From: Candidatus Poribacteria bacterium
Lineage (GTDB): Bacteria; Poribacteria; WGA-4E; UBA9662
Direction: 5' to 3'
Length of the DNA: 56,521 nucleotides
Assembly (NCBI GenBank): GCA_002709695.1
Contig: PAQF01000032.1
Coordinates: 1 to 56,521, forward strand
A program made the translations under genes and the position numbers. A model generated the notes under the pieces. That model was not told the DNA's origin. It saw only the letters and a list, made by a program, of their open reading frames with translations, and ran no database searches. Of the stretch, positions 365 through 56,338 are shown in pieces; the stretch's first letter is position 1, and the number at the start of each line of letters is the position of its first letter.

Positions 365-1321
365 ATGCACCGAAAACTAGCAACCAACGGGCATTACCAA
401 CCCAAAGGAGTAATCCCAGCCAGCCTAATGCCATTTAGAGCAGATCTAGAAATCGACGAGGCCACCTACCGAAGCCATTTGAGAGAGCTCGCTTCAGTTA
501 ATGGCATTTCTGCCATTACTATCAATGGTCATGCAGCTGAAGTTCATGCACTAACTTTAAGTGAACAAGAACGGAGTTTAGAACTAGCCCAAGACGAAGT
601 CGGAGACCAAATTCCACTGATTGTTGGCATCTCTACACCCAGCAGTATGAATGCCAAACAAATCGCTATTATGGCTACGGCCGGTGGTGCTTCGGCACTA
701 CTAGTGTTTCCGCCAGAAAGCATGTCTCTAGGTGGACAGCAACGGCCTGAAATGGCAATAGCCCATTTTGAACAGATAGCCCTTTCTACCAACTTACCAC
801 TAATTTTATTCCAGTACCCACTATCCAGTGGACTGGGCTATCCCCTTTCCGCCTTGCTGGATTTGTGTCAACGTTTTCCTACCATTCGAGCAATTAAGGA
901 CTGGTGCAACGACCCTGTTTTGCATGAGCAGCACATTCGAGAACTTCACGCGTTAGATCAACCTGTGTCCGTCCTATCGACGCATAGTGCCTGGTTATTA
1001 AGTTCGCTGGTCTTAGGTTGTGACGGATTGCTCTCTGGTGCAGGAAGTGTAATTGCGAATCTTCAGGTTGATATTTGGAGAGCAGTTCAAGCGAAAAACT
1101 TGGAGAAAGCTCAAGAACTTAGTAACCGATTGTACTATCTGACACATGCCTTCTATTGTAATCCCTTACTAGATATGCACAATCGCATGAAAGAAGCACT
1201 GGTTTTGTTGGATCGCTTGCCAGCAGCACATGTCCGTCCGCCCTTAGTAAGTTTGAAGCCAAATGAAGTGCAACGTGTTAAGGAACAGCTCAAGTTAGCC
1301 GGGCTAATTAAAAGACAGTAA
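365..1321 (+). CDS. Dihydrodipicolinate synthase / N-acetylneuraminate lyase family aldolase
   Basis: Class I aldolase of the DapA/NAL superfamily, cytosolic, 318 residues, slightly longer than typical (about 290-310). The TIM-barrel landmarks are visible: NGHAAE near residues 54-59 in place of the usual G-T/S-T/G-E loop, a catalytic tyrosine in FQYP (Y151), and the Schiff-base lysine in AIKDW (K178). The family condenses or cleaves a 2-oxo acid such as pyruvate with an aldehyde; substrate cannot be fixed from sequence. No lysine-biosynthesis genes are near, and the catabolic surroundings argue for a sugar-acid or related lyase rather than true DapA. A good Shine-Dalgarno (GGAAAGGA) supports the ATG chosen. 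Confidence 0.85.
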   Translation: MHRKLATNGHYQPKGVIPASLMPFRADLEIDEATYRSHLRELASVNGISAITINGHAAEVHALTLSEQERSLELAQDEVGDQIPLIVGISTPSSMNAKQIAIMATAGGASALLVFPPESMSLGGQQRPEMAIAHFEQIALSTNLPLILFQYPLSSGLGYPLSALLDLCQRFPTIRAIKDWCNDPVLHEQHIRELHALDQPVSVLSTHSAWLLSSLVLGCDGLLSGAGSVIANLQVDIWRAVQAKNLEKAQELSNRLYYLTHAFYCNPLLDMHNRMKEALVLLDRLPAAHVRPPLVSLKPNEVQRVKEQLKLAGLIKRQ

Positions 1322-1769: not shown

Positions 1770-3869
1770 ATGATGAATCAGTTAAAGAAATTTTATTTTG
1801 CAATTGCTTTTTGCATCTTTCATTTGGCTACAGTAGAAGGAGATGGCGCGTTGATATCAACACACCCACAACATTCGTACGCTGATACGGAAAACATTGG
1901 AAACCTAGAAGAAACCTTGCGAAATATGCTTTCGAATCAGGATAAGTATTCGTTTTCCCGCGGGTGGTGGGATTGGGACCGCTTGCGCCAACGTTATGTT
2001 GATAGTGAACGCAAGGATGAAAACTCACTCAGGATTTTGCGCGGTGTGTTTCGGGGTTTGATAATTGATTGGCACACCAAATTGGAGGCCAAAGGCGAAG
2101 ATGATTTAATGTACATCTTATTCACTACAAACAGCGGCAATAAAACAACAAGAAATGCTGATGAAGGCCGGAAACTAGTACGTGACTTACACGGAGGTGG
2201 GTATCATGGTGGCTGGGGAAGTGCATGCCGGATACGGATATACGAAGAGTTAGTTCGACAAAACATGCTTACTCCTGAAGAGAAAGAACTTTTCAAAAAA
2301 ATTGTCCATCAAAGTTTGCAACCGCAGTTTCTCGATTTCACTAAAGGTTCACAACAGGCAGACAACCACTCTTTTGGCAACGGAGGCGGTGTGGCATTGG
2401 CCCTGAAGTTATTTCCTAACGCCCCACAGGCGAAAGAGGCTCGTGATTGGCTCGACCGAATCTGGGCAAACCTAGCTGATTACGGAGATTGGACAGAATG
2501 GAATTATTATCCATACGGACCAATTTTCCTACACGGCATGCTAGATATTGCTGAGGCAACCGGCCGAATTAACACCGATCATGCACTAATCAATGCCATC
2601 GGCCAGCGCTGTCTTGGGTTTATTCACGGTGGAGGTATCCGTGGAAACCCTAATTGTGGTTCACAGGTAAGAAAAGACCTATCACAAGTCTATGCCGACC
2701 CATGGAATATGGGTTACTACAACGTCGAAACATCGAGTCGCGATGGCAACTTTTGGTATCGTATGGCCCAGCATTACAAAGACCCTGAATACCTCTGGGC
2801 CGCCGAACAGGTTGCGTTGGGAGGACGTCCTCCTGACGGAAATGTACCTGCTGAATATCAAGCTGCCTACAACAAACGCTTTGCCTGGTTTGTCAAACAC
2901 GATATAGAGCCGAAGCTACCAGCTAGCAGCTCCAAGATTGGTTTATTGAGTGCCTTTAAACATAAAATAAAGGAGCGTGTTTATCTCAACTCAGGGAGAG
3001 AACCAGAGAAACCTTTCGCCGCTTTTTTTCTTTATGACAAAAAGGACAAGCACCTTGACAACGTGGCGGGCTATCTTTATGAATATTCCATTAATGGGGT
3101 TAAACTGCTACACACATCCGGCAAATATAACAATGTCTACTCAGACAAAAAACTCAAGGGTGGGGGCACTGGCGAGGAGAGTCTCGATTCTTTGCTAGTG
3201 CTTCACAAACGGCATCCGTTTCCAATCCATCCTGACCGACAGGGTGATGAACGTGACTTTAAGCGGATAGATTTTGCCAAACATCTACCCGACTTAGCTA
3301 AAGCGGAGAACAATAGTTCAGGAGACTCATTTGGCCAGTTCGGCTTCAAAGATTTCTTTGGTCCAAGAAGCCAATGGATACGTCGTGTAATACTCACGGC
3401 TGAAGGATACCTGATTGTTGCTGACGAATACAAAGGAGACGAATCACTGGGAGCAGACTATTTGGCTGGGCCAATTTGGCACCTAGCTAAGGTCGAAGGA
3501 AAAACAACAGGATTGCAGGCAAAAAACTGGTTCGCAGCGCCAGCAATCGATCGATCATGGTGGCAAAAAAAAGAAATTGGGGTAACAGTCTACATTCACG
3601 ATGACAGCAACCTAAAATTTGGTTCCGTTCAGCAAAGCCAATCACAAGATGTTGCCCCAAATACAACTGTCTTTGCATACCGTCCAATAACAGCCGGAAA
3701 GCCAGAGCTTTTTTTAAGCATACTGGTGCCGCATTGCTTAGCCAAGTGTCCTGACACAGTTGTTCGTAACATCAAATCAGTTATTAAGCAATCTCGAACA
3801 TTTATAACCTCTATCTATGGTGTCCAAGTGATTATAGAAAGCAATGGTGGTTGGTACGTGGAACGTTAG
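1770..3869 (+). CDS. Secreted polysaccharide-lyase-like (heparinase II/III-like) protein
   Basis: A 699-residue protein with a probable Sec signal peptide (Lys pair at residues 6-7, hydrophobic core about 8-22, ending near VEGDGA), so periplasmic or exported. The central part (about residues 140-270) is helical and rich in aromatic and His residues (YHGGWGSA, QADNHSFGNGGG, WTEWNYYPYGP), reminiscent of the alpha/alpha toroid of polysaccharide lyases. The second half looks beta-rich with repeated Asp/Gly/Tyr turns, as in the lyase beta-sandwich. This is fold-level resemblance, not a recognised family, so the substrate is unknown. Two adjacent ATG codons (1770 and 1773) are possible starts. It precedes a Gfo/Idh/MocA gene, in keeping with glycan use. 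Confidence 0.5.
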   Translation: MMNQLKKFYFAIAFCIFHLATVEGDGALISTHPQHSYADTENIGNLEETLRNMLSNQDKYSFSRGWWDWDRLRQRYVDSERKDENSLRILRGVFRGLIIDWHTKLEAKGEDDLMYILFTTNSGNKTTRNADEGRKLVRDLHGGGYHGGWGSACRIRIYEELVRQNMLTPEEKELFKKIVHQSLQPQFLDFTKGSQQADNHSFGNGGGVALALKLFPNAPQAKEARDWLDRIWANLADYGDWTEWNYYPYGPIFLHGMLDIAEATGRINTDHALINAIGQRCLGFIHGGGIRGNPNCGSQVRKDLSQVYADPWNMGYYNVETSSRDGNFWYRMAQHYKDPEYLWAAEQVALGGRPPDGNVPAEYQAAYNKRFAWFVKHDIEPKLPASSSKIGLLSAFKHKIKERVYLNSGREPEKPFAAFFLYDKKDKHLDNVAGYLYEYSINGVKLLHTSGKYNNVYSDKKLKGGGTGEESLDSLLVLHKRHPFPIHPDRQGDERDFKRIDFAKHLPDLAKAENNSSGDSFGQFGFKDFFGPRSQWIRRVILTAEGYLIVADEYKGDESLGADYLAGPIWHLAKVEGKTTGLQAKNWFAAPAIDRSWWQKKEIGVTVYIHDDSNLKFGSVQQSQSQDVAPNTTVFAYRPITAGKPELFLSILVPHCLAKCPDTVVRNIKSVIKQSRTFITSIYGVQVIIESNGGWYVER

Positions 3870-25883: not shown

Positions 25884-28800
25884 GTGAAAGAACTTTTTCG
25901 TCAAACACAACCTTACCAATCAATTGTTTCATCGTTAGGTTCTCAGCGCATTAAACCTTGGATTAGGGGTTTACACGGTTCTTCCGTTGCTTTCCTTCTC
26001 TGTTCGCTAGCTGAAGACTTAGCTAATCAATCATTTATAGCTATTTTTCCATCACAAAGCGAAGCAGAAAAGCTAGCCCAAGACCTCAGCAATGATATAG
26101 AGGTATCCGTATTTCCAGAATATCAAAATTTTCTGTACCAAGGTATTTCACCACCCAAAAAATATATAGCGGACCGAATGGAATGTTTTAAGAACCTGAT
26201 AAATGGTAAGCCTACCTTTATTTCTACCTCTATCAAGGCGCTACTCCAGAAAGTGCCACCAAATCCGGTTATCAATTCATATCTCCGCACCTTAAAGATT
26301 GGCCAAGAAATTGATTTGTCAGAACTCACCACATATCTGGTTAACAGCGGATATAGAAAAGTTGAACTTGTTGAAGCAAAAGGGGACTTCGCTAGACGTG
26401 GCAACATCCTAGATATTTACCCTTTAAATCATGACTGGCCAATACGAATTGACCTATTCGGTGATGAGGTCGAGGATATACGTTTATTCGACTTTAACAC
26501 ACAAAGATCTACCAAAAATATAAATCAAGTCACCCTTATTCCCGCTCGTGAAATCACTTTCACCGACGCAATCGTAAACCAATGGCGAAACCGGGCAGAG
26601 ACCTTGATTGCATTAAAATCATCTCCCAAATATACATTTGAAATTGAACAAATCACATACCGATTGGAGGAAGGAATAGACCTAGAAGGACTTGAGTCGA
26701 TTATACCAATGTTACACAACGATATGTCTACTCTACTGGACTACGTGCCACCTGACACAATTACTACTCTAATAGAACCAAGTTGGGTAAAACGCGAAGC
26801 ACAACAACTAATTGAACAAGCAGAACAAATCTACCAGAAAAAATGGGATGCCAATCAGTTCATGGTTCCAACAGATGAGACATTTATACCTGTAGACCCT
26901 CTGATTTCAAAATTAGAGGCATTGCAGACTATATACATATCGCTGACACCTCCGCCAACACCAGTTACTAATAAGTTTGAAGAAATTCAATTTGGGATGC
27001 GTCCACTCGGTTTGCAACGTGGCAACTATCAAATGAATTTTGAAAAAATCAAAACATGGTCAGAAGATGGCTACTCTACTACCATATTTTGCGAAAACCA
27101 GAAACTCTCGCAAAGATTTGAGCATATTCTGAACGAACGAAACTTTCCTGATTCAAGAACGCATGTCCGCACAGGTAATCTCAGTGAAGGATTCATCAGT
27201 GAAGATGAGAGAATTGTTGTGATGTCCGATCACGAGGTGTTCGGTCGAACACAACGGCCAAGGAAAAAACCAAAATTTAAGGACGGCGCGTCAATTGCGA
27301 GCATTATTGACCTTCAGGTAAACGATTTTGTGGTACATGTTTCACATGGTATTGCTGTCTACCAAGGTATCAAGAAAATCGAAGTGGACGGTAAATTTCA
27401 GGATTTCATTAAGCTTGAGTACACGAATAATGACATTCTTTATGTACCAACGTATCAAATTAATCTAGTACAGAAATATATCGGTGGAAACGAAAAAGAT
27501 TACAAACCGAAGATAGACCGGCTTGGTGGAACAACTTGGAAAAACACAAAGTCAAAAGCACAAGCGGCGATCGAAAAGATGGCTGAAGAACTGTTAAGTA
27601 TATATGCCAAACGTAAAAGTACGGAAGGCTTTGCTTTTCCCTGTGACTCACCATGGCAACAGGAATTTGAAGCTTTATTTCCGTTTGAAGAAACCCCCGA
27701 CCAAATTGAATCAATTACCAATGTAAAATCAGATATGGAAAAATCCCAACCCATGGATCGATTAATATGCGGAGATGTGGGTTATGGAAAAACGGAAGTT
27801 GCATTACGTGCTACTTTCAAAGCCGTAGCAGCCGGCAAACAAGTTGCCGTCCTCGTTCCAACAACAGTACTCGCCTTACAACATTTTAACACATTCCAAA
27901 ACCGATTTAACCCATTCCCAATTTGTGTAGAAATGCTGAGCCGTCTAAAAACCCCCAAACAAATGCAATCAATAAAAGAAGGTATCGCAAAAGGCACTGT
28001 TGACATTGTCATTGGTACACATGCATTGATCTCCGAAAAAATTAAGTTCCACGACCTTGGTTTACTCATCATTGATGAAGAACACCGTTTCGGAGTGAAA
28101 CACAAGGAAAAAATCAAGCAAATCCGATCAACAGTTGATGTGTTGACATTAACAGCTACTCCTATTCCCCGAACACTACACATGTCGATGGTTGGAATTC
28201 GAGATTTCAGTTTGATCAATACACCACCTGAAAACCGTTTGCCCATTGAAACCTATATCATGGAATACAACCCAGATATTGTAAAAGACAGCATTCTACG
28301 AGAAATTGAACGAGGAGGACAAGTCTTTTTTGTTCATAATCGCGTTCAAAGCATTGCTAGTATCGCAGCACACCTCGAGGAACTCTTACCACAGGCAAAA
28401 ATTGCTATTAGTCATGGGCAAATGCCGGAACGGCAACTCGAAAAAATCATTACAGACTTCATGGATCATAAATATGACGTTCTTTTGTCTACAATGATCA
28501 TCGAATCAGGAGTTGACATTCCCAATGTAAACACGATTATAATTAACCGCGCGGACGCGCTTGGTCTTGCCCAGCTTTATCAGCTTCGAGGACGCGTTGG
28601 CCGCGCAGACTTGCAAGCATATGGTTATCTTTTCTACCCACAAGGCCAAGCCATCACCGAAGGGGCCCAGAAACGCTTGCGAGTTATCGAAGAATTTACC
28701 GACCTAGGGTCTGGATTCAAAATCGCGTTGCGTGACCTCGAAATTCGGGGTGCTGGCAATATGCTCGGCTCGCAACAACATGGCCACATCGCAACAATTG

Positions 28801-29312
28801 GTTACGATCTGTATTGCCAATTGCTTGAAGAAACCATAAAAAAATTGAAAGGAGAGGAGATTAATGAAACGATTGATGTACGAATTGACCTTCCATTAGA
28901 AGCATATTTACCAGACAATTATGTTCCTGACAGCCGACAAAAGATTTCGTTCTACAAAAAGATCGCCAACCTGAAAACCACAACAGAACGTCGGGAATTG
29001 GAAGCCGAATTCCAAGACCGCTTCGGCACCATTCCAGAACCTGTGCACTTTTTATTAGACACAGCTGAATTGAAACATCATTGTCAAGAAATTGGGATCG
29101 AAAGAATATCCTTTGCTGAGAACAAAATCAACATCGCTGTCAACCCAGAAAAGGCTCAGATTAATCCACAACAAATAATCAAACTTATGCAACAAGATAA
29201 AAGAATTTCGCTCATACCTCCATCTCGGCTACAAATCGATTCAAGAGGTTTAAGTGGGAGGAACTTTATTTTAGTAATTAGGAGCATTTTAAAAAAACTT
29301 CAGAGTGATTAA
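25884..29312 (+). CDS. mfd: Transcription-repair coupling factor Mfd
   Basis: A 1142-residue DNA translocase that removes stalled RNA polymerase from lesions and recruits UvrA. The N-terminal UvrB-like module (AKGDFARRGNILDIYPL, about 155-175) is present. The RNA-polymerase interaction domain follows (VNDFVVHVSHGIAVYQGI, about 475). The RecG-like motor has Walker A GDVGYGKTE (about 630), DEEH in IIDEEHRFG (about 730), TATPIPRTL, and motif VI QLRGRVGR. A TRCF C-terminal domain ends the protein. The length is full. GTG at 25884 directly follows the DUF3108 stop. Its placement before PpiC and SurA genes is reminiscent of the mfd-PpiC-surA order I recall from some other Gram-negative groups. Confidence 0.97.
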   Translation: MKELFRQTQPYQSIVSSLGSQRIKPWIRGLHGSSVAFLLCSLAEDLANQSFIAIFPSQSEAEKLAQDLSNDIEVSVFPEYQNFLYQGISPPKKYIADRMECFKNLINGKPTFISTSIKALLQKVPPNPVINSYLRTLKIGQEIDLSELTTYLVNSGYRKVELVEAKGDFARRGNILDIYPLNHDWPIRIDLFGDEVEDIRLFDFNTQRSTKNINQVTLIPAREITFTDAIVNQWRNRAETLIALKSSPKYTFEIEQITYRLEEGIDLEGLESIIPMLHNDMSTLLDYVPPDTITTLIEPSWVKREAQQLIEQAEQIYQKKWDANQFMVPTDETFIPVDPLISKLEALQTIYISLTPPPTPVTNKFEEIQFGMRPLGLQRGNYQMNFEKIKTWSEDGYSTTIFCENQKLSQRFEHILNERNFPDSRTHVRTGNLSEGFISEDERIVVMSDHEVFGRTQRPRKKPKFKDGASIASIIDLQVNDFVVHVSHGIAVYQGIKKIEVDGKFQDFIKLEYTNNDILYVPTYQINLVQKYIGGNEKDYKPKIDRLGGTTWKNTKSKAQAAIEKMAEELLSIYAKRKSTEGFAFPCDSPWQQEFEALFPFEETPDQIESITNVKSDMEKSQPMDRLICGDVGYGKTEVALRATFKAVAAGKQVAVLVPTTVLALQHFNTFQNRFNPFPICVEMLSRLKTPKQMQSIKEGIAKGTVDIVIGTHALISEKIKFHDLGLLIIDEEHRFGVKHKEKIKQIRSTVDVLTLTATPIPRTLHMSMVGIRDFSLINTPPENRLPIETYIMEYNPDIVKDSILREIERGGQVFFVHNRVQSIASIAAHLEELLPQAKIAISHGQMPERQLEKIITDFMDHKYDVLLSTMIIESGVDIPNVNTIIINRADALGLAQLYQLRGRVGRADLQAYGYLFYPQGQAITEGAQKRLRVIEEFTDLGSGFKIALRDLEIRGAGNMLGSQQHGHIATIGYDLYCQLLEETIKKLKGEEINETIDVRIDLPLEAYLPDNYVPDSRQKISFYKKIANLKTTTERRELEAEFQDRFGTIPEPVHFLLDTAELKHHCQEIGIERISFAENKINIAVNPEKAQINPQQIIKLMQQDKRISLIPPSRLQIDSRGLSGRNFILVIRSILKKLQSD

Positions 29313-29322
29313 ACATCATACT

Positions 29323-29329
29323 AAGGAGG
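29323..29329 (+). promoter_or_regulatory. Strong ribosome binding site fixing a TTG start
   Basis: AAGGAGG ends five bases before the TTG at 29335. It lies inside the longer open frame that begins with a GTG at 29305, so translation most likely begins at the TTG. Confidence 0.7.
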
Positions 29330-29334
29330 AAAAA

Positions 29335-30303
29335 TTGTTAAAACATAGTTTCACTAACATAGTTTTCTTATTTTTTCTATTGGTCCACTTCAATACCTTT
29401 ACGCATGCAACAGAAGTCGTAGCAAAATTTACTTGGAATGGAGAAACCCAAGAAATTACTGCTGAAGACCTAGAAGCAGAAATTGAAAAACTACCTGCTT
29501 ATCGACAAGAGAATGTTAACAGAACAATATCTGACAAAATCGAGTTTCTTAACGAATTCCTCAATGAGAAACTGCAATTGCTCAGTGCCCAAAAAAATGG
29601 TTTTGATAATAATAAGAAGTTACTCGAGAAAGTCGAAGATTATCGTCATCAGTTAATGGTTGAACAACTCACCAAAATCGAAGTAGATGAAAAGATCTCC
29701 TACTCAGAAGAGGAGCTACGAAACTATTACCAAGAACATTCGGATGATTATATCGTGGCCGAAGAGGTTCGCACTACTTGCATATCTATAAAAGAAGACG
29801 AAGAACTTGCACAAAGCGCCCTTGATCAAATATTAGAAGGTACAGATATTATCGATATGGCGAAGAAACTTTCGGAAGAAAACAAGCTTGATGGACCAGG
29901 TTCAGGGCAAAACGATCCAGGTGATACAGGTTTCTTCGACAGAAATGTCTCGGAAAGTTGGAAACCCTTTATTGACGGTGCTTTCGAACTCAAAGTTGGA
30001 GAAATGACCGAAGAACTCGTAGAAGTCGAATATGGGGATGAATATTATTATATGATCTTTCGCAAGGAAGAACACCGTCCAGAACGACAGGAAACTTTCG
30101 AAGAAGTAAAGGATCAAGTTGAAAGAATTATTGAAAGGGAAAAGAAACGCGAACGCATTCTAGAATGGGTTGAGGAAGTCACAAAAAAAGGAAAGCTCCT
30201 AAAACATCCTGATCGTATTCCTGAATCTGCGGTAAAACCAAGCGAAGAAAGCTCCGAAGAAGAAACTAACGAAAAAACAGAAAAGGAGACCGAAAATGAA
30301 TAG
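29335..30303 (+). CDS. PpiC-like parvulin peptidyl-prolyl isomerase, secreted
   Basis: A 322-residue periplasmic protein from a TTG start, with a signal peptide (hydrophobic IVFLFFLLVHFNTF, cleaved near THA). An N-terminal SurA/PrsA-like helical region (about 30-140) leads to a parvulin-type domain (about 143-245). In the parvulin loop, where many families have GGdLGwf, the sequence is DGPGSGQNDPGDTGFF. The C-terminal 30 residues are a Glu/Lys-rich acidic tail. It would help fold outer-membrane proteins. The next gene is a clear paralogue, so a tandem duplication lies here. The stop overlaps that gene's ATG by eight bases (30296-30303). The GTG at 29305 is less likely because of the strong site at 29323. 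Confidence 0.85.
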   Translation: MLKHSFTNIVFLFFLLVHFNTFTHATEVVAKFTWNGETQEITAEDLEAEIEKLPAYRQENVNRTISDKIEFLNEFLNEKLQLLSAQKNGFDNNKKLLEKVEDYRHQLMVEQLTKIEVDEKISYSEEELRNYYQEHSDDYIVAEEVRTTCISIKEDEELAQSALDQILEGTDIIDMAKKLSEENKLDGPGSGQNDPGDTGFFDRNVSESWKPFIDGAFELKVGEMTEELVEVEYGDEYYYMIFRKEEHRPERQETFEEVKDQVERIIEREKKRERILEWVEEVTKKGKLLKHPDRIPESAVKPSEESSEEETNEKTEKETENE

Positions 30304-31303
30304 GATCATCGTATTTTTGTGTTTACTATTAACTGGCCCCTTTTTAATTGGTTGTGGCAGTAAGACCGAAAAAATAAAAGGAACAATAATTGCAGAATTC
30401 GATTGGGAGGGCAAAAAACATCATATTACACTTGAAGAAATGATGCAGGAAATATCTGAACTCCCTGAGTACAAACAGGAACAGTATCAAGAGACTAAAG
30501 AAGGTCTTGAAGAATATATGACACTTATGGCCGAAAGTCGTCTGATTCTAATGATTGCCCAAGATAATAACCTGCAAGATAACGAAGAAATTCAAGAAAA
30601 AATACAAGACTATCTTCACGAGCTGATGCTGGAAAAAATAACCGATCTTGAGGTCGAACAAAAAATAAAGCTTACTGAAGACAACCTGAGACTTTACTAT
30701 GAAGAAAACAAAGAGGAATACATCGAACCAGAACAAGTTCGATTAACTTGTATCACCGTCAAAAACGAAGAACGGGCAACAGAAACTTTTCAGCAAATAG
30801 AAGACGGCGCTGATATCAAAGAATTGGCCCAGACACTATCGGACCGCGGAGAACTTGATGGACCTGGAGCAGACCCAGAGGACCCTGGTAATACCGGTTT
30901 TATTAGCTACAACAGTTTCTCCGATATCGTCAAACCTTTTGTTGATGCCGCCTTTGCCCTTGAAATCGGGAAAACTCATAACGAGATCATTCGTGCAGAA
31001 GTGCAAGGAGAACCCTATTTCATGATATTTCGGAAAGAAGAAGAGAAAGCAGAACGCCAACAACCCTTTGAAGAAGTTCGCGATAGTGTTGAGAGCAGTG
31101 CAGAACAGGATAAACGGGATAAACTCCTAGAAGATTGGCTTTCCAAGCTCCGAGAAAAAGCTGAAGTCAAAGTCTATGAGGACCTGATTCAAGTTCCAGT
31201 TGAACCAGAAACCGAACCTGATGAAGCAGAAACTTCAACAGGGACAGTAGGTACCGAAGAGCCAAACGAAACACCAGAAAGTTCACCTGGTTCAACGGAA
31301 TAA
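30296..31303 (+). CDS. PpiC-like parvulin lipoprotein
   Basis: A 335-residue paralogue of the preceding protein, with a lipoprotein signal: hydrophobic core FLCLLLTGPFL and lipobox LIGC (Cys20). The architecture is the same: N-terminal chaperone-like helical region, then a parvulin domain at about 147-245 with DGPGADPEDPGNTGF in the loop, and a Pro/Glu/Thr-rich C-terminal tail, probably disordered. As in its neighbour, the substrates would be outer-membrane or periplasmic proteins; attachment to a membrane separates its role. It overlaps the first paralogue by eight bases and is followed after 17 bases by surA. Identity between paralogues is moderate by eye, so the duplication is not recent. 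Confidence 0.85.
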   Translation: MNRIIVFLCLLLTGPFLIGCGSKTEKIKGTIIAEFDWEGKKHHITLEEMMQEISELPEYKQEQYQETKEGLEEYMTLMAESRLILMIAQDNNLQDNEEIQEKIQDYLHELMLEKITDLEVEQKIKLTEDNLRLYYEENKEEYIEPEQVRLTCITVKNEERATETFQQIEDGADIKELAQTLSDRGELDGPGADPEDPGNTGFISYNSFSDIVKPFVDAAFALEIGKTHNEIIRAEVQGEPYFMIFRKEEEKAERQQPFEEVRDSVESSAEQDKRDKLLEDWLSKLREKAEVKVYEDLIQVPVEPETEPDEAETSTGTVGTEEPNETPESSPGSTE

Positions 31304-31320: not shown

Positions 31321-32631
31321 ATGCTAAATTCTATACTATACCAATCTCGCCTTAAAAAAACTGGCCTGCTGATTGTTATTTTTGCCTCTTTGATTCAGAT
31401 AGCATATGGTCGAACATTCGATCGAATTATTGGCTTTGTGAACGACGAGGTAATTACTGCTTGGGAAATAGAAACGCTGGTAAAACAACGGGCAATGGAA
31501 CTCCAGCGTTTCTATAATTTCAACGAACAAGAAGCACGTCAACAGGCTGATAAAGACCGACCTCAATTACTTGATCAATTCATCCGTCAGATGCTACTGG
31601 TCGAAACTGCGTTAACACTTAAAATTGAGGTCACGGACGAAGAAATAGACCTTGCAATACAAAACTTCAAAGATCAGACAAAAATTACAAACGAAGAAGA
31701 GTTTCTTAAGCAACTGAAACGCGAAGGGTTCACCATAATATCTTATCGTGAACAAACCAAACGGAATCTAATGGCAGAGAGACTTGTAATGCAACGAATA
31801 CTACCCAAGTTACAAGTTCGAGATTCCGATGTCCAGAAATTCTTTGACGATAACCGAGACCAATTCGATGAAAAAAGTGACCTTATCAACTTAAGGCACA
31901 TTTTCATTGCTTTTCAACCAACTGAAGTAAATCGTCAAAAAACAATTAAAACATTAAATGAATTTATAATTGCTGTTAAAGATGGTGGAAATTTTGAAGT
32001 TCTAGCTCAGCAAGTTATTAAAGATAAAATCGCTGATGAAAAGGTTGCTACTCTGGTAGAACTTCCCATTACCGAAGTTAAAAAGCTTTCTGAACCTTTT
32101 TCAACGACACTAACAACACTAGGAGCAAATACCGTCAGCAAACCGATTGAAAGCAGTGAAGGGTATTATGTTTTCAAAATCGAGCGTAAGGATAATGAAA
32201 ACATTGCTTTTCGTCACCTCAACGTGCCTTTCGAAATCAATCAAGATTCAGTTAATACCGCCAACAATACCATACAAACTATCATTGAAAAATTGAATCA
32301 GGGTGAAGACTTTTCTATCTTAGCCCAAAACTTTTCTGAAGATGCTAAAACAAAAGAAAACGGTGGAGATCTCGGACCTCACTCATTGGACGATTTGACT
32401 CCAGATATCCGTCCTGTAATCGAGAAACTTGGAAAAGGAGAATACAGTAAACCTGTAAAAACTTCGTCAGGCATCCACATTTTCAAAGTTGACAGTCGCC
32501 TTCCTTCCGAACTCACACAAGCAGAAAAAGATCAAATCCGAACTCTCTTACGCGAAAAGAAGTTCCAAGAAGAGTGGAAAACCTACACAGATCTTCTTCG
32601 AAGTATCGCCTTCATCAAAATCAACGAATAA
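31321..32631 (+). CDS. surA: SurA-like periplasmic chaperone with two parvulin domains
   Basis: A 436-residue protein with a signal peptide (hydrophobic LLIVIFASLIQIAYG, about 17-31). The SurA N-domain begins IIGFVNDEVITAWEIE and spans about 35-175. Two parvulin domains follow, at about 187-290 (NLRHIFIAF onward) and 295-390 (FRHLNVPF, KENGGDLGPHSLDDL, SSGIHIFKVD). The second has the canonical GGDLG loop; the first lacks it. SurA escorts unfolded outer-membrane proteins to the BAM complex and in E. coli is the main chaperone of LptD. Here the next gene, after 17 bases, encodes an LptD homologue, so the context matches the known client. Confidence 0.93.
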   Translation: MLNSILYQSRLKKTGLLIVIFASLIQIAYGRTFDRIIGFVNDEVITAWEIETLVKQRAMELQRFYNFNEQEARQQADKDRPQLLDQFIRQMLLVETALTLKIEVTDEEIDLAIQNFKDQTKITNEEEFLKQLKREGFTIISYREQTKRNLMAERLVMQRILPKLQVRDSDVQKFFDDNRDQFDEKSDLINLRHIFIAFQPTEVNRQKTIKTLNEFIIAVKDGGNFEVLAQQVIKDKIADEKVATLVELPITEVKKLSEPFSTTLTTLGANTVSKPIESSEGYYVFKIERKDNENIAFRHLNVPFEINQDSVNTANNTIQTIIEKLNQGEDFSILAQNFSEDAKTKENGGDLGPHSLDDLTPDIRPVIEKLGKGEYSKPVKTSSGIHIFKVDSRLPSELTQAEKDQIRTLLREKKFQEEWKTYTDLLRSIAFIKINE

Positions 32632-32648: not shown

Positions 32649-35600
32649 TTGAATAGGCAAGTACACCAATCGATTCGCTTATTTCAGTTGCATAATAAAT
32701 GGAAATTCAAAAAGCAAAAAAAACCTTACCAGTTTAAACCTATAGGTCATTCCTACATCCATTTCTATCACTCTCAACTCAATTATTCAGCAACTTTTTT
32801 AATCTTATTCCTCTGCTTATCAACTGGGGTTTGGTCCCAAGAGACTGTTCCTCCAGCTAGTTCGATCAACACCAAGACCAACGAATCAACTGAGAATATT
32901 ACTCGTAAGGAAGAAACTCCCCAAGAGAAACGACCAGTTCGTCTGGACCCAGAAAACGCTTCTGGGGAAAAAGACCGCATTATTGGTAAAGGCCACAACC
33001 TTATTGTGAACAAAAACCTTGTAGAAATCCACGGGCAAGCATTGGTTAAAACAGAAGAAATTGTACTTCGATCAGACCAAATTTGGGCCGACTTCGACAA
33101 AGATATGGTAAAAGCATATGGAAACGTGAAACTGGTTGTTGGTAACGAAGAAACTTTTTCGAACGAATTAATTTACAATATGACAACTAAGGAAGGTGTT
33201 GTCCATGAAGGATTTACCTACAGCGAACCGTGGTACTATCGAGGCAAAGAAATTTTTAAAATCGGAGAGAATGAATCCTATATACGCGGAGGATCGATTA
33301 CCAGTAGCCCATTGAAACACCCTCACTACGATTTTTTAGCTTCGAATATCATCGTCAAAACCAACAAAGAACTCATTGCCAAACACGTTATACTGAGAAT
33401 TGGTGGTTTTCCACTTTTCTATTTTCCTGCCTATCGTCGAGACCTCCGAAAAGACAAACAAGCGAAACTTATCTTTAGACTAGGCACAGATAGCTACCAA
33501 GGACCGTTCATGAGTATTGAACTGCCCATTTCTCGACGACGTCGATTTAATGGATCAATTATGTTCGATCAAAGTTCTCGTCGTGGTCGTGGAGGTGGTA
33601 CTGACGGAGGATATCGCGTCAATGACGTTGGATTCGATGAGATATTCATTCCATTTCTGCCAGATGCAACACCAAGTGAAAAAGTAAAATTAAGAGACCT
33701 CGCTTCCGAGCTTGTCGATCGTTTAGACGGAGAGTTTGATCATTATAAACTCCGTCAGTTATTCTTCAAATATATGATTACAGAAGAAGATGTCAAACGC
33801 GCACATACAAAGATACAAGAAGTCAAAGTTAAATTACAAGCTGACAACGCTGACTTCGGAAAAATCGCCGAGGCTAACTCCGATGATGACCAAACTCGTT
33901 ACCAAGGAGGCGCTCTAGGGTTTCTAGTTCAAGGAGAAAGAGACCAAGACGGCAAGTTAAGGCTTGACCCAATTCTAGAAGAAGTAGCCTTCGCGCTCAA
34001 AGCAGGCGAAACCAGTAAAATATTGCAAACAAAACACGGATTTCATATCTTGAAGGTTGACCAAATTCTCGATATTTATGGTGAGCACGAGATTTCTCTA
34101 CGTCGTATCGATATCAATATTAGCCCTAGCGAAAAAACAAGGGAAACAACAAGAGAAACAGCTGAAAAAATACAAGAACGTGCTGCTGAGGGCGAAAGTC
34201 TCTCACTACTTGCGAGCGAATTTGAGGAAGCAGTAGTTTCTGACGTAATGATGCCACTCAACAAAATGGACAGCCAATGGAAGTATTCAGTTCGTCGTCT
34301 CGAAAAACCAGATGAAGTAACACCAACTGTAATGACAGACCAAGGCATCTATATTTTCCAACTTATTGAAAAAGAAGACACTCCACTCTTCGATACAATC
34401 GCACGTGAATTCGAGGAAAAGGTTGGCCAATCTATGGTCGAAGAGTTTGAAAAGCGTCTAGCTGAAAAAGCTGAAGCTGAAAAAAAAGTGTCCGATCCAA
34501 AAGAAATAGAACAGAATGGAGAATTGGAAGAAGAAGAAAAAATTAAAACCTATACAAAACACGGATTTAAAGGTCGATGGGAACACGAACGTGCGGTTAC
34601 ACGAGAAGCACAACAACTCGACCGAGGAGAATCAAGCAACGTTATTGAAAGTAAAAGAGGATATCATCTAATTAATGTTAAGAAAAAACGAACTTACCGT
34701 GGGGATTTATTTTTCTATACCAACGACCAGTACTCATTTTCACGGGAAGAAGCCACCCGAATCGGGCAGCGAACGGCCTTGCGATGGGGACATTATCATA
34801 GCATCTACACACCATGGGACAACCGAGGAGAAGGCCGAAAGCCATTAAATTTTATGGGCCGCATCGAATTACAATCTGAAAGTTATAAGGAAGGATTCGG
34901 AGATTCTGAATCAGCAATTGATTCGTTCGGTATGTTTACTTGGGGATCCGCATTCTCAGCAATCGACGAACTTGACACCGATGATGACGGGAATCTAACT
35001 TTCTCAACACAAACAATAGGTGAGTTTCTTGGTCGACTTCAAGTAAACCACAGCCTAGACTTAACCGGCGAAGGCACAAGTACTCTGCAGAAGCTTCCAG
35101 AAGCAAACGTTTCCTTATCCCGAATGCGACTTAGTAATTTACCCATATTCAAAAATATAAATGACCGAATGGTTCAAATAGCAGAGAAAGTAAATACCAA
35201 CATGCCTATTCTGTCCCTCATAAGCTTCCCAACCTTAGAAAACGCCAGCTTTGATCTGGACCTGAACTTTGGAAATTTTTTCCGCGATCGATACCAAGAA
35301 GAGGAAAACGTATACTTGTTGGCAGGAGTCGTTGGCTTCGACGTACGAAAACAATCAACACTAAAAGTCTCATCAACCCGCGAAGCGAAACTGGATCTAA
35401 ATCTAAATACTAACTTTGTTTGGCATGATAAAGATCGCGAAGGAAATCGACACATATTTCGTCGGGTTTACGATATACAAGCTGATGTCAGCAATATCCT
35501 GTTTCGAATTTATGACATCAGTTTTATTCCCGGTGCAAGGAGAATGAGGCACCAAATGAATTCTACTGTCTCTGCCAGTTATGCTCCAGCTGTCGACCGT

Positions 35601-36350
35601 GAAGACAATTTATATCCATTTGGGCCAAGTACCTATTTCTATGAAGCAAAAGATCTGACCTACCGCTTCGATACCAGTATTGAGATCAAAACAAAAAAAA
35701 ATAAAACGCCGTTACGAATCCTTCAATTCCGAACGCGGTTACGAGCAGACTATACTGATTACGCCGCTGAATGGAATCGAAAGTATGATTTCATTGAAAG
35801 TGACATAACAATGACGCCATTAGCCAAACAAAATATGAATATCATGATCCGTACGACACACAACCCAAATGAATCCGAACTCGACAAAAAACGATTCAAG
35901 CAAGTTGGATTTAGATCAAACATTAACTATCGACAAGAAAAATGGGATTTTTCGATTGGCAACTCATTTAGTAAAAGGACATCTCGTGCATCCCGTCGAA
36001 TTAACTTCAGTTTTCAGTTCCGGCCTAATTCGTTGATTGAAATCGATTTAGGAGCGGATTATGATTGGATTGAAAAACAGTTCTATTCACAACGAATGAC
36101 ACTCCGTCGCAACTTAAACGTCTGGGATCTTCGAATTTCGTGGCACCGAGTTGGAATCAAACGTAGGCCACCCTATAATAATGTACGCCAAGACTTCACA
36201 TTCCAACTTAATTTACTAGCTGATCCAGCCGTCGCAGTTGGTCTTGGCTATGATGCGACAACCGAGACGTGGGGATTCCGTAGCTTGCCAGTGGGTGTAC
36301 CTTATAATGCCTTTGGGGTTGGCAACGGACTAAGTAGATCTTATTTCTAA
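32649..36350 (+). CDS. LptD-like LPS-assembly barrel protein with inserted parvulin domains
   Basis: A 1233-residue outer-membrane protein. A hydrophobic stretch at about 48-62 (TFLILFLCLSTG) is the signal peptide after a long basic N-terminus. Residues about 105-260 are the OstA/LptA-like jellyroll (IVNKNLVEIHGQALV, ending IGGFPLFYFPAYR). A first barrel part covers about 270-330. Residues about 384-473 form a parvulin-like domain (ILEEVAFALKAGETSKIL, HGFHILKV), followed by a degenerate second unit (482-577) and the tail of a third (655-680, LDRGESSNVIESKRGYHLINV). Barrel-like sequence resumes from 685 to the end, which is Phe. LptD normally has no such insert. LptD inserts LPS into the outer leaflet; SurA, its chaperone in E. 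coli, is encoded next door. Confidence 0.85.
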   Translation: MNRQVHQSIRLFQLHNKWKFKKQKKPYQFKPIGHSYIHFYHSQLNYSATFLILFLCLSTGVWSQETVPPASSINTKTNESTENITRKEETPQEKRPVRLDPENASGEKDRIIGKGHNLIVNKNLVEIHGQALVKTEEIVLRSDQIWADFDKDMVKAYGNVKLVVGNEETFSNELIYNMTTKEGVVHEGFTYSEPWYYRGKEIFKIGENESYIRGGSITSSPLKHPHYDFLASNIIVKTNKELIAKHVILRIGGFPLFYFPAYRRDLRKDKQAKLIFRLGTDSYQGPFMSIELPISRRRRFNGSIMFDQSSRRGRGGGTDGGYRVNDVGFDEIFIPFLPDATPSEKVKLRDLASELVDRLDGEFDHYKLRQLFFKYMITEEDVKRAHTKIQEVKVKLQADNADFGKIAEANSDDDQTRYQGGALGFLVQGERDQDGKLRLDPILEEVAFALKAGETSKILQTKHGFHILKVDQILDIYGEHEISLRRIDINISPSEKTRETTRETAEKIQERAAEGESLSLLASEFEEAVVSDVMMPLNKMDSQWKYSVRRLEKPDEVTPTVMTDQGIYIFQLIEKEDTPLFDTIAREFEEKVGQSMVEEFEKRLAEKAEAEKKVSDPKEIEQNGELEEEEKIKTYTKHGFKGRWEHERAVTREAQQLDRGESSNVIESKRGYHLINVKKKRTYRGDLFFYTNDQYSFSREEATRIGQRTALRWGHYHSIYTPWDNRGEGRKPLNFMGRIELQSESYKEGFGDSESAIDSFGMFTWGSAFSAIDELDTDDDGNLTFSTQTIGEFLGRLQVNHSLDLTGEGTSTLQKLPEANVSLSRMRLSNLPIFKNINDRMVQIAEKVNTNMPILSLISFPTLENASFDLDLNFGNFFRDRYQEEENVYLLAGVVGFDVRKQSTLKVSSTREAKLDLNLNTNFVWHDKDREGNRHIFRRVYDIQADVSNILFRIYDISFIPGARRMRHQMNSTVSASYAPAVDREDNLYPFGPSTYFYEAKDLTYRFDTSIEIKTKKNKTPLRILQFRTRLRADYTDYAAEWNRKYDFIESDITMTPLAKQNMNIMIRTTHNPNESELDKKRFKQVGFRSNINYRQEKWDFSIGNSFSKRTSRASRRINFSFQFRPNSLIEIDLGADYDWIEKQFYSQRMTLRRNLNVWDLRISWHRVGIKRRPPYNNVRQDFTFQLNLLADPAVAVGLGYDATTETWGFRSLPVGVPYNAFGVGNGLSRSYF

Positions 36351-36351
36351 C

Positions 36352-37203
36352 ATGATTAAATATTGGTTTGAGGAATCTGTTTCCAACATTCGACACGGTG
36401 GAATAGTCAGTTTGCTCAGCATCATTATCATCACACTTACCGTAATCATTTTGAGTAACCTAACCATTATTCGGAACTACCTACACAAAGAAATAAAAAC
36501 TCTTAAAGCAGATGCTCCAATCATAGCCTTTTTAGAAGACAATTTAGATACAGAAACGCTCAACAAACTGCGAATAGACCTCCAAAGAGCAAACGAAATC
36601 AGTAATATCACTTATGTCTCAAAAGAAACAGCACTTAAAAAAAGCCAAGAGACATTTGGAAAATACAGCCAAGCTATCATGGACGGCTTCGCAGACATAA
36701 ACCCACTTCCTGCCTCATTTGAAATCCATTTGAACGAGCCTATTCTCGCCCCAAATGCCCTCCCAGATATTGCCAACTGGGTGGGCAGTCTTACTGGTAT
36801 TGAAGACGTAACCTATGAACAATATAGCTCCAATTTTATCAATAAGACAGAAACCGTGGTCCTAATATTTAGTATATTAATGGGAGGATCTTCAATCGTA
36901 ATTGTTTCCTTCTCAATTATGCTAACCGTCTATTTTAGGAGGGAAGAAATAAAAATCTTGCGAATGGTCGGTGCAGGACACCTATATATTATTCTACCAT
37001 TGGTCAGTCAAGGAATATTTCTGGGCTTCATCGGAAGCATCTTGGGATTATTGGGAATATACTTGATATTCTATCTACTCTCACAACAAATAGGCGACAT
37101 CGAATTTATGACATCTACTCAATTTCTCGCTATCATCCTCATTGGCACTTTGCTTGGTTTTATTGGCAGTTTGTTACCTATAAAACGTTATATGGAAGTT
37201 TAG
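36352..37203 (+). CDS. ftsX: Cell-division protein FtsX
   Basis: A 283-residue inner-membrane protein with four transmembrane helices. Helix 1 (about 20-42) starts after a cytoplasmic stretch with ESVSNIRHGG; a periplasmic domain (about 45-165) follows with AFLEDNLD, YVSKETAL and LPASFEIHL, all typical. Three C-terminal helices lie at about 170-195, 215-245 and 258-280, with FRREEIKILRMVGA between. FtsX with FtsE controls septal peptidoglycan hydrolysis. The ATG at 36352 begins two bases after the lptD-like stop. Its FtsE partner is far away and on the other strand. Confidence 0.92.
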   Translation: MIKYWFEESVSNIRHGGIVSLLSIIIITLTVIILSNLTIIRNYLHKEIKTLKADAPIIAFLEDNLDTETLNKLRIDLQRANEISNITYVSKETALKKSQETFGKYSQAIMDGFADINPLPASFEIHLNEPILAPNALPDIANWVGSLTGIEDVTYEQYSSNFINKTETVVLIFSILMGGSSIVIVSFSIMLTVYFRREEIKILRMVGAGHLYIILPLVSQGIFLGFIGSILGLLGIYLIFYLLSQQIGDIEFMTSTQFLAIILIGTLLGFIGSLLPIKRYMEV

Positions 37204-38588: not shown

Positions 38589-39410
38589 GTGAAAAAAGTG
38601 GCCTTATCTTTTCATGAAGAGGTTGGATCATCTCTATCCATCTTTAATGATTCAAACCTAATTCTAACTTATAATTACCATAGAGATCTAAGCAAACCGT
38701 ACTTCCATCCGGTTAATGCTCCCAATACACAAAGTGTTACAAGCAATACCCCTGAAGATAATACCAACCATCACGGACTTTGGTTCGGATGGAGCAACGT
38801 AAACGGTATCAATTTTTGGGCTGGGGAAGAAGGTAAAATAGAGCACAATAAATTCCAAACACAAGAGATTTCAGACCATTCCGCGAAGATTATTAGCACC
38901 AGCAATTGGTCTGTAGCAGACAAAAAAACGCTAATTGAACAAACCAGTGAGATAATTGTTCACGAACCTCTGGCCGACCAGCATATTATCGATCTTAATT
39001 TTTCGTTTCATCCCCTATCAGAAGATATCCTTTTGCCAGCAAGCGATAGTAATTATGGCTTATGTTATCGATCACCTTATCGAGAAAAACAAAAAGTAAT
39101 CAATTCTGACAGCCGCATAGGAGAATGGGAAGTAAACAAAAAACCAGCTACATGGTGTGATCTCCTCGCTCTAGAAGGTAATATGACGGTAGGAACAGCA
39201 ATTTTCGACCATCCATCCAACCCTCGATATCCAACAAAATTCACTGCAACAGATGAGGATTTTGGCTTTATTTCCCCTTCGCTTACCATGGATGAACCAT
39301 ATACGATTAAAGCTGATGAATCGCTACACCTAAGATATCGAGTTCTAATCCACCTTGAAGATCTTTTCACATTTGATTTATGGAAATGCTACAAGGAATA
39401 CATAAAATGA
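38589..39410 (+). CDS. DUF6807 (PmoA-like) family protein
   Basis: A 273-residue protein of the family annotated DUF6807 or PmoA-like (unrelated in function to methane oxidation as far as I know). Conserved blocks: YFHPVNAPN, EDNTNHHGLWFGWSNVNGINFW with its His pair (about 56-77), then WCDLLALEG and FDHPSNPRYPTKF. It looks like a beta-sandwich of the aldose-epimerase type, probably acting on sugars. A second copy is at 55472. The start is GTG at 38589; a clear Shine-Dalgarno is lacking. Its TGA overlaps the ATG of miaB by four bases (ATGA), so the two are translationally coupled. Confidence 0.82.
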   Translation: MKKVALSFHEEVGSSLSIFNDSNLILTYNYHRDLSKPYFHPVNAPNTQSVTSNTPEDNTNHHGLWFGWSNVNGINFWAGEEGKIEHNKFQTQEISDHSAKIISTSNWSVADKKTLIEQTSEIIVHEPLADQHIIDLNFSFHPLSEDILLPASDSNYGLCYRSPYREKQKVINSDSRIGEWEVNKKPATWCDLLALEGNMTVGTAIFDHPSNPRYPTKFTATDEDFGFISPSLTMDEPYTIKADESLHLRYRVLIHLEDLFTFDLWKCYKEYIK

Positions 39411-53161: not shown

Positions 53162-55456
53162 ATGAGATGGAAATCGTTTCTACACGATAAGCTAAGACAG
53201 ATACGAAAATCCGGTATTCAACCGTACCATGCCTTAGTCGTTGTTTCAGCATTTTCATTCGCCACTGCCCTTGGCTTCTGGATTCATAAGTTCTTTATTT
53301 TTCAACCAAAAACATCAGAAATCATAGGTTGGATCAGTGCTAATAACTACCCGAAACATCAAGAATTTTTCTATTACATTTTAGCACTGACCGGTATCCC
53401 AGTAACGATATTTATCTATACGATCTTCTGGGTTACCTTTTCTCAGTTTACCGCCAAATGGGTACGCCAACCAACAGTTCTATTGCTGAAACAAAACGCT
53501 CTCGCCTCCTCATTCATGCTGTTGACATGTTATCGGATTTGGGACTTAAATAGAAGCCCGTTTTTGGGATTGCTCCTGCCGATGGTATTAGTACTTGTAA
53601 CTAAAATCGGGATCATCGTAAAACAACTAAGAAAACGAGATAGTGCAATACCAACTCCACCTGTTACAATAACCAATCAAAATCAAGCCTACAAATCCAT
53701 TACTGATAAACTATCGACCCATCCAATTTCTCAGCTTTTTAAATACCTGATCCTACCCATTCTAATCTACTCACTACTTTATACTGGACAGAGTTCTTCA
53801 ACTATTGATTTATTTCATGAAGGGGAGCAATTGGCACCCCTAAACGAAATGGTATATGGCCATATACCATTTCGAGATATATACCTACAACATGGATTAT
53901 TTCAGAATGCAGGACTAGCTTGGTTGGGTGGAAAAATATTTGGTGTCTCCCTCGAAGGTGTCCGAAAAATGTCGCGCTTTTTAGGGCCATTTGGTTACGT
54001 TGCAATTTACTTGCTTGGCACACAGCTTTTTCGTTTCGGTGCCATACCATCTATCCTTCTAACTGTAATCATTTCATCCGAAGGAAATTGGGTGACAACC
54101 AGACATAGCCTCGCTTTAATCAGTTTTGCTTGGGTTGCCAATTATCTGAAAACCCATCATCATGACGGACTATATGCTGGTTGGAACTCCCTAAAAACAA
54201 CAGAACTATCCCTTTCACCTTATTCAGCTCAAAACATAGAAAGTCATGTTCGGCAAAAGCTAAAATACACTTTTAAATATAGCATCACCTTCGGTTGGAA
54301 ACTAATCACGGCGGGTTTCTTTGCTAATCTAGCTTTCTGGTACAGTACTGAAATCGGGCTATATACACTTTCATCAATCAGCATATTCCTTCTAATCTAT
54401 GGAATTCGACACCCTCTTCCAAAAGCCAAGCAGTTATTACCACTAGGATGCTACAATATGGGCGCTTTAATTGGAAGCGTACCAATTTTAACCTATTTTA
54501 CTTTCCATGGTGCATTGGACGATTTAATTACCAATACCTGGATTCAATGCAGATATCAAGTTTCGACTTGGGGACTACGCTTTCCATCGCTAGCAAGCAT
54601 ACTGGAACCACTAAATAACCCTGAAGTTCAAAATCAATGGCTAGTTTTCCTGAAAAGTGAAGGATTTCGGTGGTATCTTCCAATAGCTGTCTTTGTAGTA
54701 GTTGCCAGTTATTTGGTATATAGATCAACCTACAGAGAGATGTGGGACAGTGAAGGTTGCACCCTACTTTTTCTCACCCTTCTAGGCGGAGCAACTTTTT
54801 TCCGAACTGCTCTTGGTCGATCTGATGGAGGACACTTGATTTTCGGATCGACATTTTTATGGGTAATTGGTATCCTGATTATAGAACGTGGAATTGATCG
54901 GATCATCCGTCAAAAAACGAATCGAGTTTGGGTAACCCTCTTTATTAGTATTCTAAGTGTGGGCGCGTCTTACTATTTACAAGAGGTACACCATCCACTA
55001 CGTGCGTTCAACTCACGAGTGAATCAACTTATGAACCGAAACGTGAAACCAGCAGAAAAACCCCAAATACTAAATAGAACAGGGCGGGAAAACATACAAA
55101 CCAACCAAGCAGAGCACGTTGCCCGTGTCGTTAACTATATTCAAAATCACACACGACCTAACGAGAAGATCTTTGACTTTACTAGCCAAGGCGCTTACTA
55201 TTTCTTTGCTAACCGTCCAAGTGTCACACGATACCACCAAATCGCTTATGCCTCAACATCTAATATGCAAATGGAAGTCATTTATAGTTTGGAGAATAAC
55301 AAAACAAACCTAGTAATATTTAAAACTGGTGGTTGGTTTGATAAAATCGATGGTATACCCAGTGAACAAAGACATCCAATTATCTCCCAATATATAAAAG
55401 AACATTATAAACTGGCAATCGACATCAACGGCACGCAAATTTTAAATCGCATGTAA
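53162..55456 (+). CDS. Large polytopic membrane protein, GT-C glycosyltransferase-like
   Basis: A 764-residue integral membrane protein with roughly ten or more hydrophobic helices: several between residues 20 and 145, more from about 195 to 470, and two around 540-600. A loop after the helix at about 195 reads DLFHEGEQLAPLNEMVYG (near 216-233) followed by PFRDIYLQHGLFQN, an acidic-His pattern seen in large bacterial membrane proteins of the GT-C kind. The C-terminal 150 residues are soluble (NRTGRENIQTNQAEHVARVV onward), probably periplasmic. A role in transferring sugars from a lipid carrier is plausible but unproven; no family is certain. It begins 15 bases after the isomerase gene. Confidence 0.65.
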   Translation: MRWKSFLHDKLRQIRKSGIQPYHALVVVSAFSFATALGFWIHKFFIFQPKTSEIIGWISANNYPKHQEFFYYILALTGIPVTIFIYTIFWVTFSQFTAKWVRQPTVLLLKQNALASSFMLLTCYRIWDLNRSPFLGLLLPMVLVLVTKIGIIVKQLRKRDSAIPTPPVTITNQNQAYKSITDKLSTHPISQLFKYLILPILIYSLLYTGQSSSTIDLFHEGEQLAPLNEMVYGHIPFRDIYLQHGLFQNAGLAWLGGKIFGVSLEGVRKMSRFLGPFGYVAIYLLGTQLFRFGAIPSILLTVIISSEGNWVTTRHSLALISFAWVANYLKTHHHDGLYAGWNSLKTTELSLSPYSAQNIESHVRQKLKYTFKYSITFGWKLITAGFFANLAFWYSTEIGLYTLSSISIFLLIYGIRHPLPKAKQLLPLGCYNMGALIGSVPILTYFTFHGALDDLITNTWIQCRYQVSTWGLRFPSLASILEPLNNPEVQNQWLVFLKSEGFRWYLPIAVFVVVASYLVYRSTYREMWDSEGCTLLFLTLLGGATFFRTALGRSDGGHLIFGSTFLWVIGILIIERGIDRIIRQKTNRVWVTLFISILSVGASYYLQEVHHPLRAFNSRVNQLMNRNVKPAEKPQILNRTGRENIQTNQAEHVARVVNYIQNHTRPNEKIFDFTSQGAYYFFANRPSVTRYHQIAYASTSNMQMEVIYSLENNKTNLVIFKTGGWFDKIDGIPSEQRHPIISQYIKEHYKLAIDINGTQILNRM

Positions 55457-55471
55457 ATACGGAGTAGCATC

Positions 55472-56338
55472 ATGTTCTTACTAAATCAAGTTGGTAACAC
55501 ATTACGCCTAACATGGCAAGATGAAATCATTATGGATTATAATTTTCCACCGGATGGATATCGACCATACTGGCATCCGCTCCGATTACCAGACTCACCG
55601 ATTGTAACGATGAACCAACCTGAAGATCACATACATCATCAAGGTATGTGGATGGCTTGGAAAATGGTAAATAACGTGAATTTCTGGGAACAGCCAGCCC
55701 CCGATGCAAATCCAGCTGGATACGGTCGAATTGTTCATCAAAAGATACAAGACCAATCAGTTAATCAGAATGGGGCTTCTTTCACTACCGAAAATTCCTG
55801 GATTGATTGGTTAGGAACCAAACATCTTTCTGAAAATCGGACGACTTTTGTACACCCACCAACCACGAACAATTTAGTTATTGATATCTCGTTTGATTTT
55901 AAGTCGAACGACCAGGACGTAATCTTTGACTTGAAACGGGGAAAACCCGGTGGTGGAGGGCTTTTCTATAGTGGTCTAACCATCCGGTTTGATAACATAT
56001 TAACTCCAGGGAAAGTCTTGGATGCTAACGGTCAAACTAATACTGAAAAAATATTTGGTAATCAGAGTGAATGGTGTAGTTTAGCAGGAGTTCATCCAGA
56101 AGATAATCACGCTTATGGCGCTATAATAATTGATTCTCCATCAAATCCTCACCATCCAACAACGTGGTGGGTCCGCAACACCAAAAATTACGGTTTATTA
56201 CACCCATCACCAACTTATTACGAGCCTATCACTCTAAAGAAAAATGAAGTTTTAACGTTTAAATATCGCGTGATTTTGCATCGTGGCGATATAAACAACA
56301 AACTAGTAAATACAATCTCACAAGATTACAAAAAATAA
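55472..56338 (+). CDS. DUF6807 (PmoA-like) family protein
   Basis: The second DUF6807 protein of the window, 288 residues. Conserved blocks match the copy at 38589: YWHPLRLPD, QPEDHIHHQGMWMAWKMVNNVNFW with paired His (about 51-74), then SEWCSLAGVH and DSPSNPHHPTTWWVR. The aromatic and His-rich pocket suggests sugar binding in a beta-sandwich. It has a clear GGAG (55461-55464) before the ATG. It is followed after 13 bases by a Gfo/Idh/MocA gene, so a coupled oxidoreductase-DUF6807 step is likely; similar pairings are frequent, to my memory, in Poribacteria and Planctomycetes. Confidence 0.85.
   Translation: MFLLNQVGNTLRLTWQDEIIMDYNFPPDGYRPYWHPLRLPDSPIVTMNQPEDHIHHQGMWMAWKMVNNVNFWEQPAPDANPAGYGRIVHQKIQDQSVNQNGASFTTENSWIDWLGTKHLSENRTTFVHPPTTNNLVIDISFDFKSNDQDVIFDLKRGKPGGGGLFYSGLTIRFDNILTPGKVLDANGQTNTEKIFGNQSEWCSLAGVHPEDNHAYGAIIIDSPSNPHHPTTWWVRNTKNYGLLHPSPTYYEPITLKKNEVLTFKYRVILHRGDINNKLVNTISQDYKK

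Follow-up and report, generated by a model that had tools for sequence, protein, structure and literature searches.

Why would the LPS translocon of a bacterium carry parvulin domains within its own barrel? LptD is an essential protein, and few outer-membrane barrels are harder to fold; in E. coli, its folding requires SurA, LptE, and exchange of disulfides. In a 56,521-nucleotide stretch of a Candidatus Poribacteria genome (contig PAQF01000032.1, hereafter the window), an earlier note made from the sequence alone had read one large open reading frame as an LptD homologue with parvulin-type domains inserted in its barrel region. This reading was borne out by Pfam, by a profile of ordinary LptDs, and by AF2 modelling with Foldseek, and the features of the locus are collected in the table below.

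The gene is a single 1233-codon reading frame without internal stop. It starts at a TTG, and because its first 110 codons contain no in-frame ATG or GTG, the exact N-terminus of LptD is uncertain. The closest named locus, from a Poribacteria MAG, is 86% identical across the full LptD protein. The LptD Pfam models (PF19838/PF04453) gave no match to the window protein itself, on which Pfam picked up the parvulin part alone, and the identification relied instead on relatives and on searches with profiles. The relatives match LptD_2 (PF19838, up to 4.7e-9) and OstA_2, and LptD_2 matches were found in 48 Poribacteria genomes, most of them above the model's cut-off. A profile built from seven LptDs of other phyla matched the window frame twice, at 33009-33626 before the insert (E 5.8e-52) and at 35370-36239 after it (E 9.3e-11), and recovered one ORF per Poribacteria genome tested, with no second LptD. 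In profile-profile comparison with these ordinary LptDs, the stretch from jellyroll to β4 aligned over 217 columns (E 2.5e-46), up to residue ~327, which marks the start of the insert.

The full-length AF2 model was of moderate confidence (pLDDT 77.5, pTM 0.59). Its top PDB matches in Foldseek were nevertheless LptD structures (4q35, 5iv9, 7omm; E from 9.2e-22, target TM-score up to 0.62), with a large rmsd of 9-19 Å because the whole multi-domain chain was aligned. The jellyroll matched LptA (2r1a) with an rmsd of 2.0 over 101 columns, and the barrel has ~26 strands plus a small terminal hairpin, a strand count that rests on the moderate-confidence model. The genome also encodes LpxC (4.0e-87) and two LptF/LptG genes. 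We conclude that the product of 32649-36350 is LptD, the only one found in this genome. The order of parts given in the earlier note, a jellyroll and first barrel portion, then a barrel resuming past the insert and ending in Phe, agrees with both the model and the profile matches.

Table. Features of the lptD locus and related loci. Positions are those of the window unless a locus is named; bit scores for parvulin domains P1 and P2 refer to a local parvulin profile.
Feature	Position	Strand	Basis or remark
mfd	25884-29312	+	TIGR00580; first gene of conserved neighbourhood
ppiC-type gene, PpiA	29305-30303	+	PF13145 1.9e-11; conserved
ppiC-type gene, PpiB	30296-31303	+	PF13145 6.2e-11; conserved upstream of surA-lptD
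surA, 436 aa (SurA_N and two parvulins)	31321-32631	+	Pfam/NCBIfam; domain alignment
lptD with parvulin insert	32649-36350	+	1233 aa; ORF list, Pfam, homology to ordinary LptDs either side of insert, AF2 and Foldseek
Probable signal peptide, residues 46-64 (YSATFLILFLCLSTGVWSQ)	32784-32840	+	read from sequence; start codon uncertain
N-terminal jellyroll (beta-taco), residues 105-265	32961-33443	+	AF2 secondary structure, Foldseek LptA 2r1a, profile match
Barrel strands β1-β4, residues 275-325	33471-33623	+	AF2 strands, model positions 176-236; homologous stretch in non-poribacterial LptDs
P0a, first half (β1-α1) of split outer parvulin, residues 326-363	33624-33737	+	hhalign alone 91% probability, template 1-33; AF2 E2-18/H25-42
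P1, complete parvulin, residues 364-476	33738-34076	+	best PF00639/PF13616 stretch; HMM 106.7 bits; AF2 pLDDT ~90 or more
P2, complete parvulin, residues 477-577	34077-34379	+	HMM 95.0 bits; AF2
P0b, second half (α2-β2-α4-β3-β4) of split outer parvulin, residues 578-684	34380-34700	+	HMM positions 47-102; hhalign; AF2 H264-297, E318-324, H331-339, E354-371
Barrel strands β5-β26 and short C-terminal tail ending in Phe, residues 685-1233	34701-36347	+	AF2; LptD profile match
ftsX, directly downstream of lptD	36352-37203	+	PF18075/PF02687
Family f7 SurA genes without parvulins	L057:6692-7741, L058:8865-9539, L059:6473-7177, L130:5181-5858		
Second insertion of the sister class	L061 (G060) LptD residues ~751-879; L127 (G059) ORF 1-2334, residues ~247-378		

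The insert occupies ~359 residues (326-684) between strands β4 and β5. Rotamase PF00639 matched the window protein at 1.1e-26 over three stretches, a parvulin content far above chance, and the insert-only AF2 model (pLDDT 88.6) had PDB matches with E < 0.001 exclusively to parvulin proteins (Foldseek; PPIase 8hm4, PpiD 8zht, SurA 1m5y). Both the parvulin HMM search and the structure prediction proposed in the earlier note returned parvulins. Elements in the model run β1-α1, P1, P2, α2-β2-α4-β3-β4: an outer parvulin, P0, is split around the nested P1 and P2, and the insert consists of three full parvulins. When joined, P0a and P0b aligned end-to-end with a SurA-only parvulin profile (hhalign) at a score of 91.5, against 65.8 for P0b alone and control maxima of 78.5 for 200 column-shuffled versions and 76.2 for 83 other LptD segments. 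The first strand of P0 is continuous with β4 and the last strand of P0b with β5 in the AF2 model. A variable acidic linker lies mid-P0b in the window's order and is absent in deeper lineages, and SurA_N was not among the Pfam matches of the LptD protein. The earlier note had described three parvulin tails at residues 384-680; parvulins are indeed present, but the insert spans 326-684 and the tails are the C-terminal halves of full domains. A reading as three tails only is ruled out, as the N-terminal halves are also detected by HMM, hhalign, and AF2.

Parvulin-inserted LptDs were found in 82 of 85 Poribacteria genomes, comprising 56/56 of those of good quality and 21 of 22 genera, and the three genomes without a match are assemblies broken into 600 to 880 contigs and 78-90% complete. 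The fusion is thus lineage-wide, as the earlier note had supposed, and the search for the same architecture in related genomes that it had suggested was positive. Among the matches listed from ~780 genomes of other phyla, LptD-part and parvulin-part matches fell in separate, shorter ORFs and none was a fused LptD, although a divergent case is possible; phylum searches centred on the closest LptDs outside Poribacteria took in two genomes each. No parvulin was found in 20 unusually long LptDs. Among the bacteria sampled, the three-parvulin design was not seen outside Poribacteria. Likewise, the open literature (subscription journals and preprints excluded) yielded neither a published LptD with parvulin domains nor a study of Poribacteria LptD, consistent with the earlier note's remark that it knew of no described LptD of this form.

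Since surA lies directly upstream of lptD and their domains are related, an assembly chimera of the two genes, or a frameshifted or misread ORF, could in principle produce such an architecture, and the earlier note had itself named an assembly chimera as a danger to its reading. However, the 82 of 85 genomes that share the architecture were assembled separately and include single-contig ones, the insert, its flanks, and surA are similar in codon use, and the domain positions within the insert form their own clades that follow species. These observations refute an artefact, to which we assign practically no probability. One genome (G079, 9% contamination) carries two complete lptD-parvulin genes (C35, C130), which probably represent two strains rather than a paralogue.

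The side of the membrane on which the insert would lie can be estimated by counting strands. A conserved LHCW/LHDW turn sits between strands 24 and 25 of the AF2 model, and C724/C725 of E. coli LptD are located in the periplasmic β24-β25 turn (PMC12644819). Because the LHCW/LHDW turn corresponds to β24-β25 as in E. coli, even-to-odd turns including β4-β5 are expected to be periplasmic, and the insert would accordingly face the periplasm; strand parity disfavours an extracellular location. As modelled, the insert appears to adjoin the jellyroll, four strands away from where the lateral gate is expected. In the sister class there is a second parvulin insertion, also in an even-to-odd turn (β10-β11), in which the order is permuted, with the C-terminal half first and the N-terminal β1-α1 after it, possibly representing a circularly permuted parvulin.

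Conserved residues further constrain what these domains could do. The first His of the parvulin catalytic pair (RHI... and GxHI...) is missing in P0, P1, and P2 of the window protein and in nearly all LptD parvulins of its relatives, and no LptD parvulin domain in the alignment of window and relatives has both. The second parvulin of the neighbouring SurA retains both histidines. As no LptD parvulin keeps the pair, the insert parvulins likely bind rather than isomerise, to judge from sequence. As for cysteines, the mature window LptD has none, so that inter-domain disulfides of the E. coli type cannot form in it. In LptDs of other phyla, the inter-domain pair consists of a TTC in the jellyroll and the LHCW of the β24-β25 turn, corresponding to residues ~221 and ~1157 of the window LptD. 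This pair is retained in sister-class genome G060, and G059 also keeps the turn Cys; every member of the window's class that was sampled has lost the turn Cys. T. pallidum LptD likewise lacks the conserved Cys positions (PMC8407342), and the inter-domain disulfide is hence not universal in LptD.

The gene order mfd-ppiC-ppiC-surA-lptD recurs phylum-wide wherever contigs are long enough to show it. In one family (f7), the SurA adjoining lptD is without both parvulin domains and only its N/C core is left, while LptD keeps its three parvulins. In the same family and in G059 (L057, L058, L059, L062), a two-domain ORF of ~650-740 aa replaces the two PpiC-type genes upstream of surA. Elsewhere in the window, two separate DUF6807 genes are found at 38589-39410 (PF14100 4.5e-50) and 55472-56338 (1.2e-60), and the large ORFs at 1770-3869 (699 aa) and 53162-55456 (764 aa) gave no Pfam match at 1e-5.

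Comparison with a congener gave a dN/dS of 0.13 for the insert (P1 and P2 0.12-0.13, P0a 0.058) and 0.03-0.04 for barrel and jellyroll. The insert is under purifying selection and evolves ~3x faster than the barrel and jellyroll. P0, P1, and P2 fall largely in separate clades of the domain phylogeny and look vertically inherited across the phylum. An ML tree placed P1 with SurA S1 of a deep lineage (UFBoot 99); the donor cannot be named, however, because ~100 columns are too few.

These features leave several potential roles for the insert. We favour, at about even chances, a module that binds clients as SurA does, without catalysis, and acts in cis while LptD is being assembled. Speaking for it are the expected periplasmic location, parvulins of a binding type, the nearby surA, and a place early in the chain. 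Once exported, the three-parvulin module would fold early as a soluble periplasmic unit and could hold aromatic-rich segments of the following 540-residue barrel without isomerase catalysis, by analogy with client binding by SurA P1 in E. coli, which binds aromatic-rich peptides (PMC11401910). Module and neighbouring SurA would help LptD reach the BAM machine and fold there, and after assembly the module would stay under the barrel, where it may steady the jellyroll/barrel joint. Counting against a cis chaperone is the faster evolution of the insert relative to barrel and jellyroll (0.13 vs 0.03-0.04), and an extra chaperone looks redundant given that SurA and two further PpiC proteins are encoded alongside. 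A broader version, in which the three nested parvulins act in cis as chaperone for the barrel they belong to and, in f7 with its parvulin-less SurA, supply that function in trans too, appears doubtful.

The lost His pair, the inferred periplasmic site, and the surA neighbourhood fit both a folding aid and a docking role. As a docking platform, the parvulins would not chaperone LptD but bring partners (SurA, LptA, BAM, or the PpiC proteins encoded nearby) to the periplasmic mouth of the translocon, or else, like LptM/LptY in E. coli, stabilise the joint between jellyroll and barrel. This we consider possible though short of probable: the insert adjoins the jellyroll and β1-β4, its loss of the catalytic pair suits such a role, the contrast in f7 between SurA without parvulins and LptD with three might reflect labour divided in trans, and in E. 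coli the jellyroll is bound by LptY and the lateral gate by LptM (PMC12644819), yet no partner is known in Poribacteria. Lost catalytic residues, a strongly varying linker length, and the rearranged parvulin in another periplasmic turn of the sister class could also point to an evolutionary passenger, an insertion of ancient date that does little itself and is merely tolerated where it sits, in a periplasmic turn. A module of 359 residues without use would be expected to decay, however, and this one is retained in every good Poribacteria genome with a dN/dS of ~0.12-0.13 (0.058 for P0a) and its predicted folds intact, which makes a passenger very improbable. A module suspended from a turn at the mouth of the barrel, with P0 strands running into β4 and β5 in the AF2 model, might instead fold up into the lumen and replace the LptE plug; this is improbable, as three parvulins (~359 residues) are ~2x the size of LptE and the acidic linker and faster evolution better match a soluble, exposed module.

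Compared with known systems, the window protein shares with LptD (OstA/Imp) the jellyroll and ~26-strand barrel, the best PDB matches, homology on both sides of the insert, and a genome with LpxC and LptF/G, whereas the 359-residue three-parvulin insertion at the β4-β5 turn and the cysteine-free mature protein set it apart. Each insert domain has the parvulin fold of SurA, PpiD, and PrsA, and P1-P2 are in tandem as in SurA, but the insert is without the SurA N-domain or C-terminal helix core, adds a split parvulin that encloses P1 and P2, contains no domain with the His pair, and is built into a barrel protein. Treponema pallidum TP0515 is another LptD that has an unusual extra region specific to its lineage; in that case the region is a C-terminal domain, unstructured and placed within the barrel by modelling, with parvulins unmentioned (PMC8407342).

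A phylum whose LptD bears parvulins, and whose main class is without the disulfide partner cysteine, represents a natural experiment on barrel assembly. Its cis-tethered, probably non-catalytic module offers a test of binding versus isomerisation by SurA P-domains, and the nested arrangement of parvulins within a split parvulin within a barrel constitutes an additional route by which barrels gain soluble domains.
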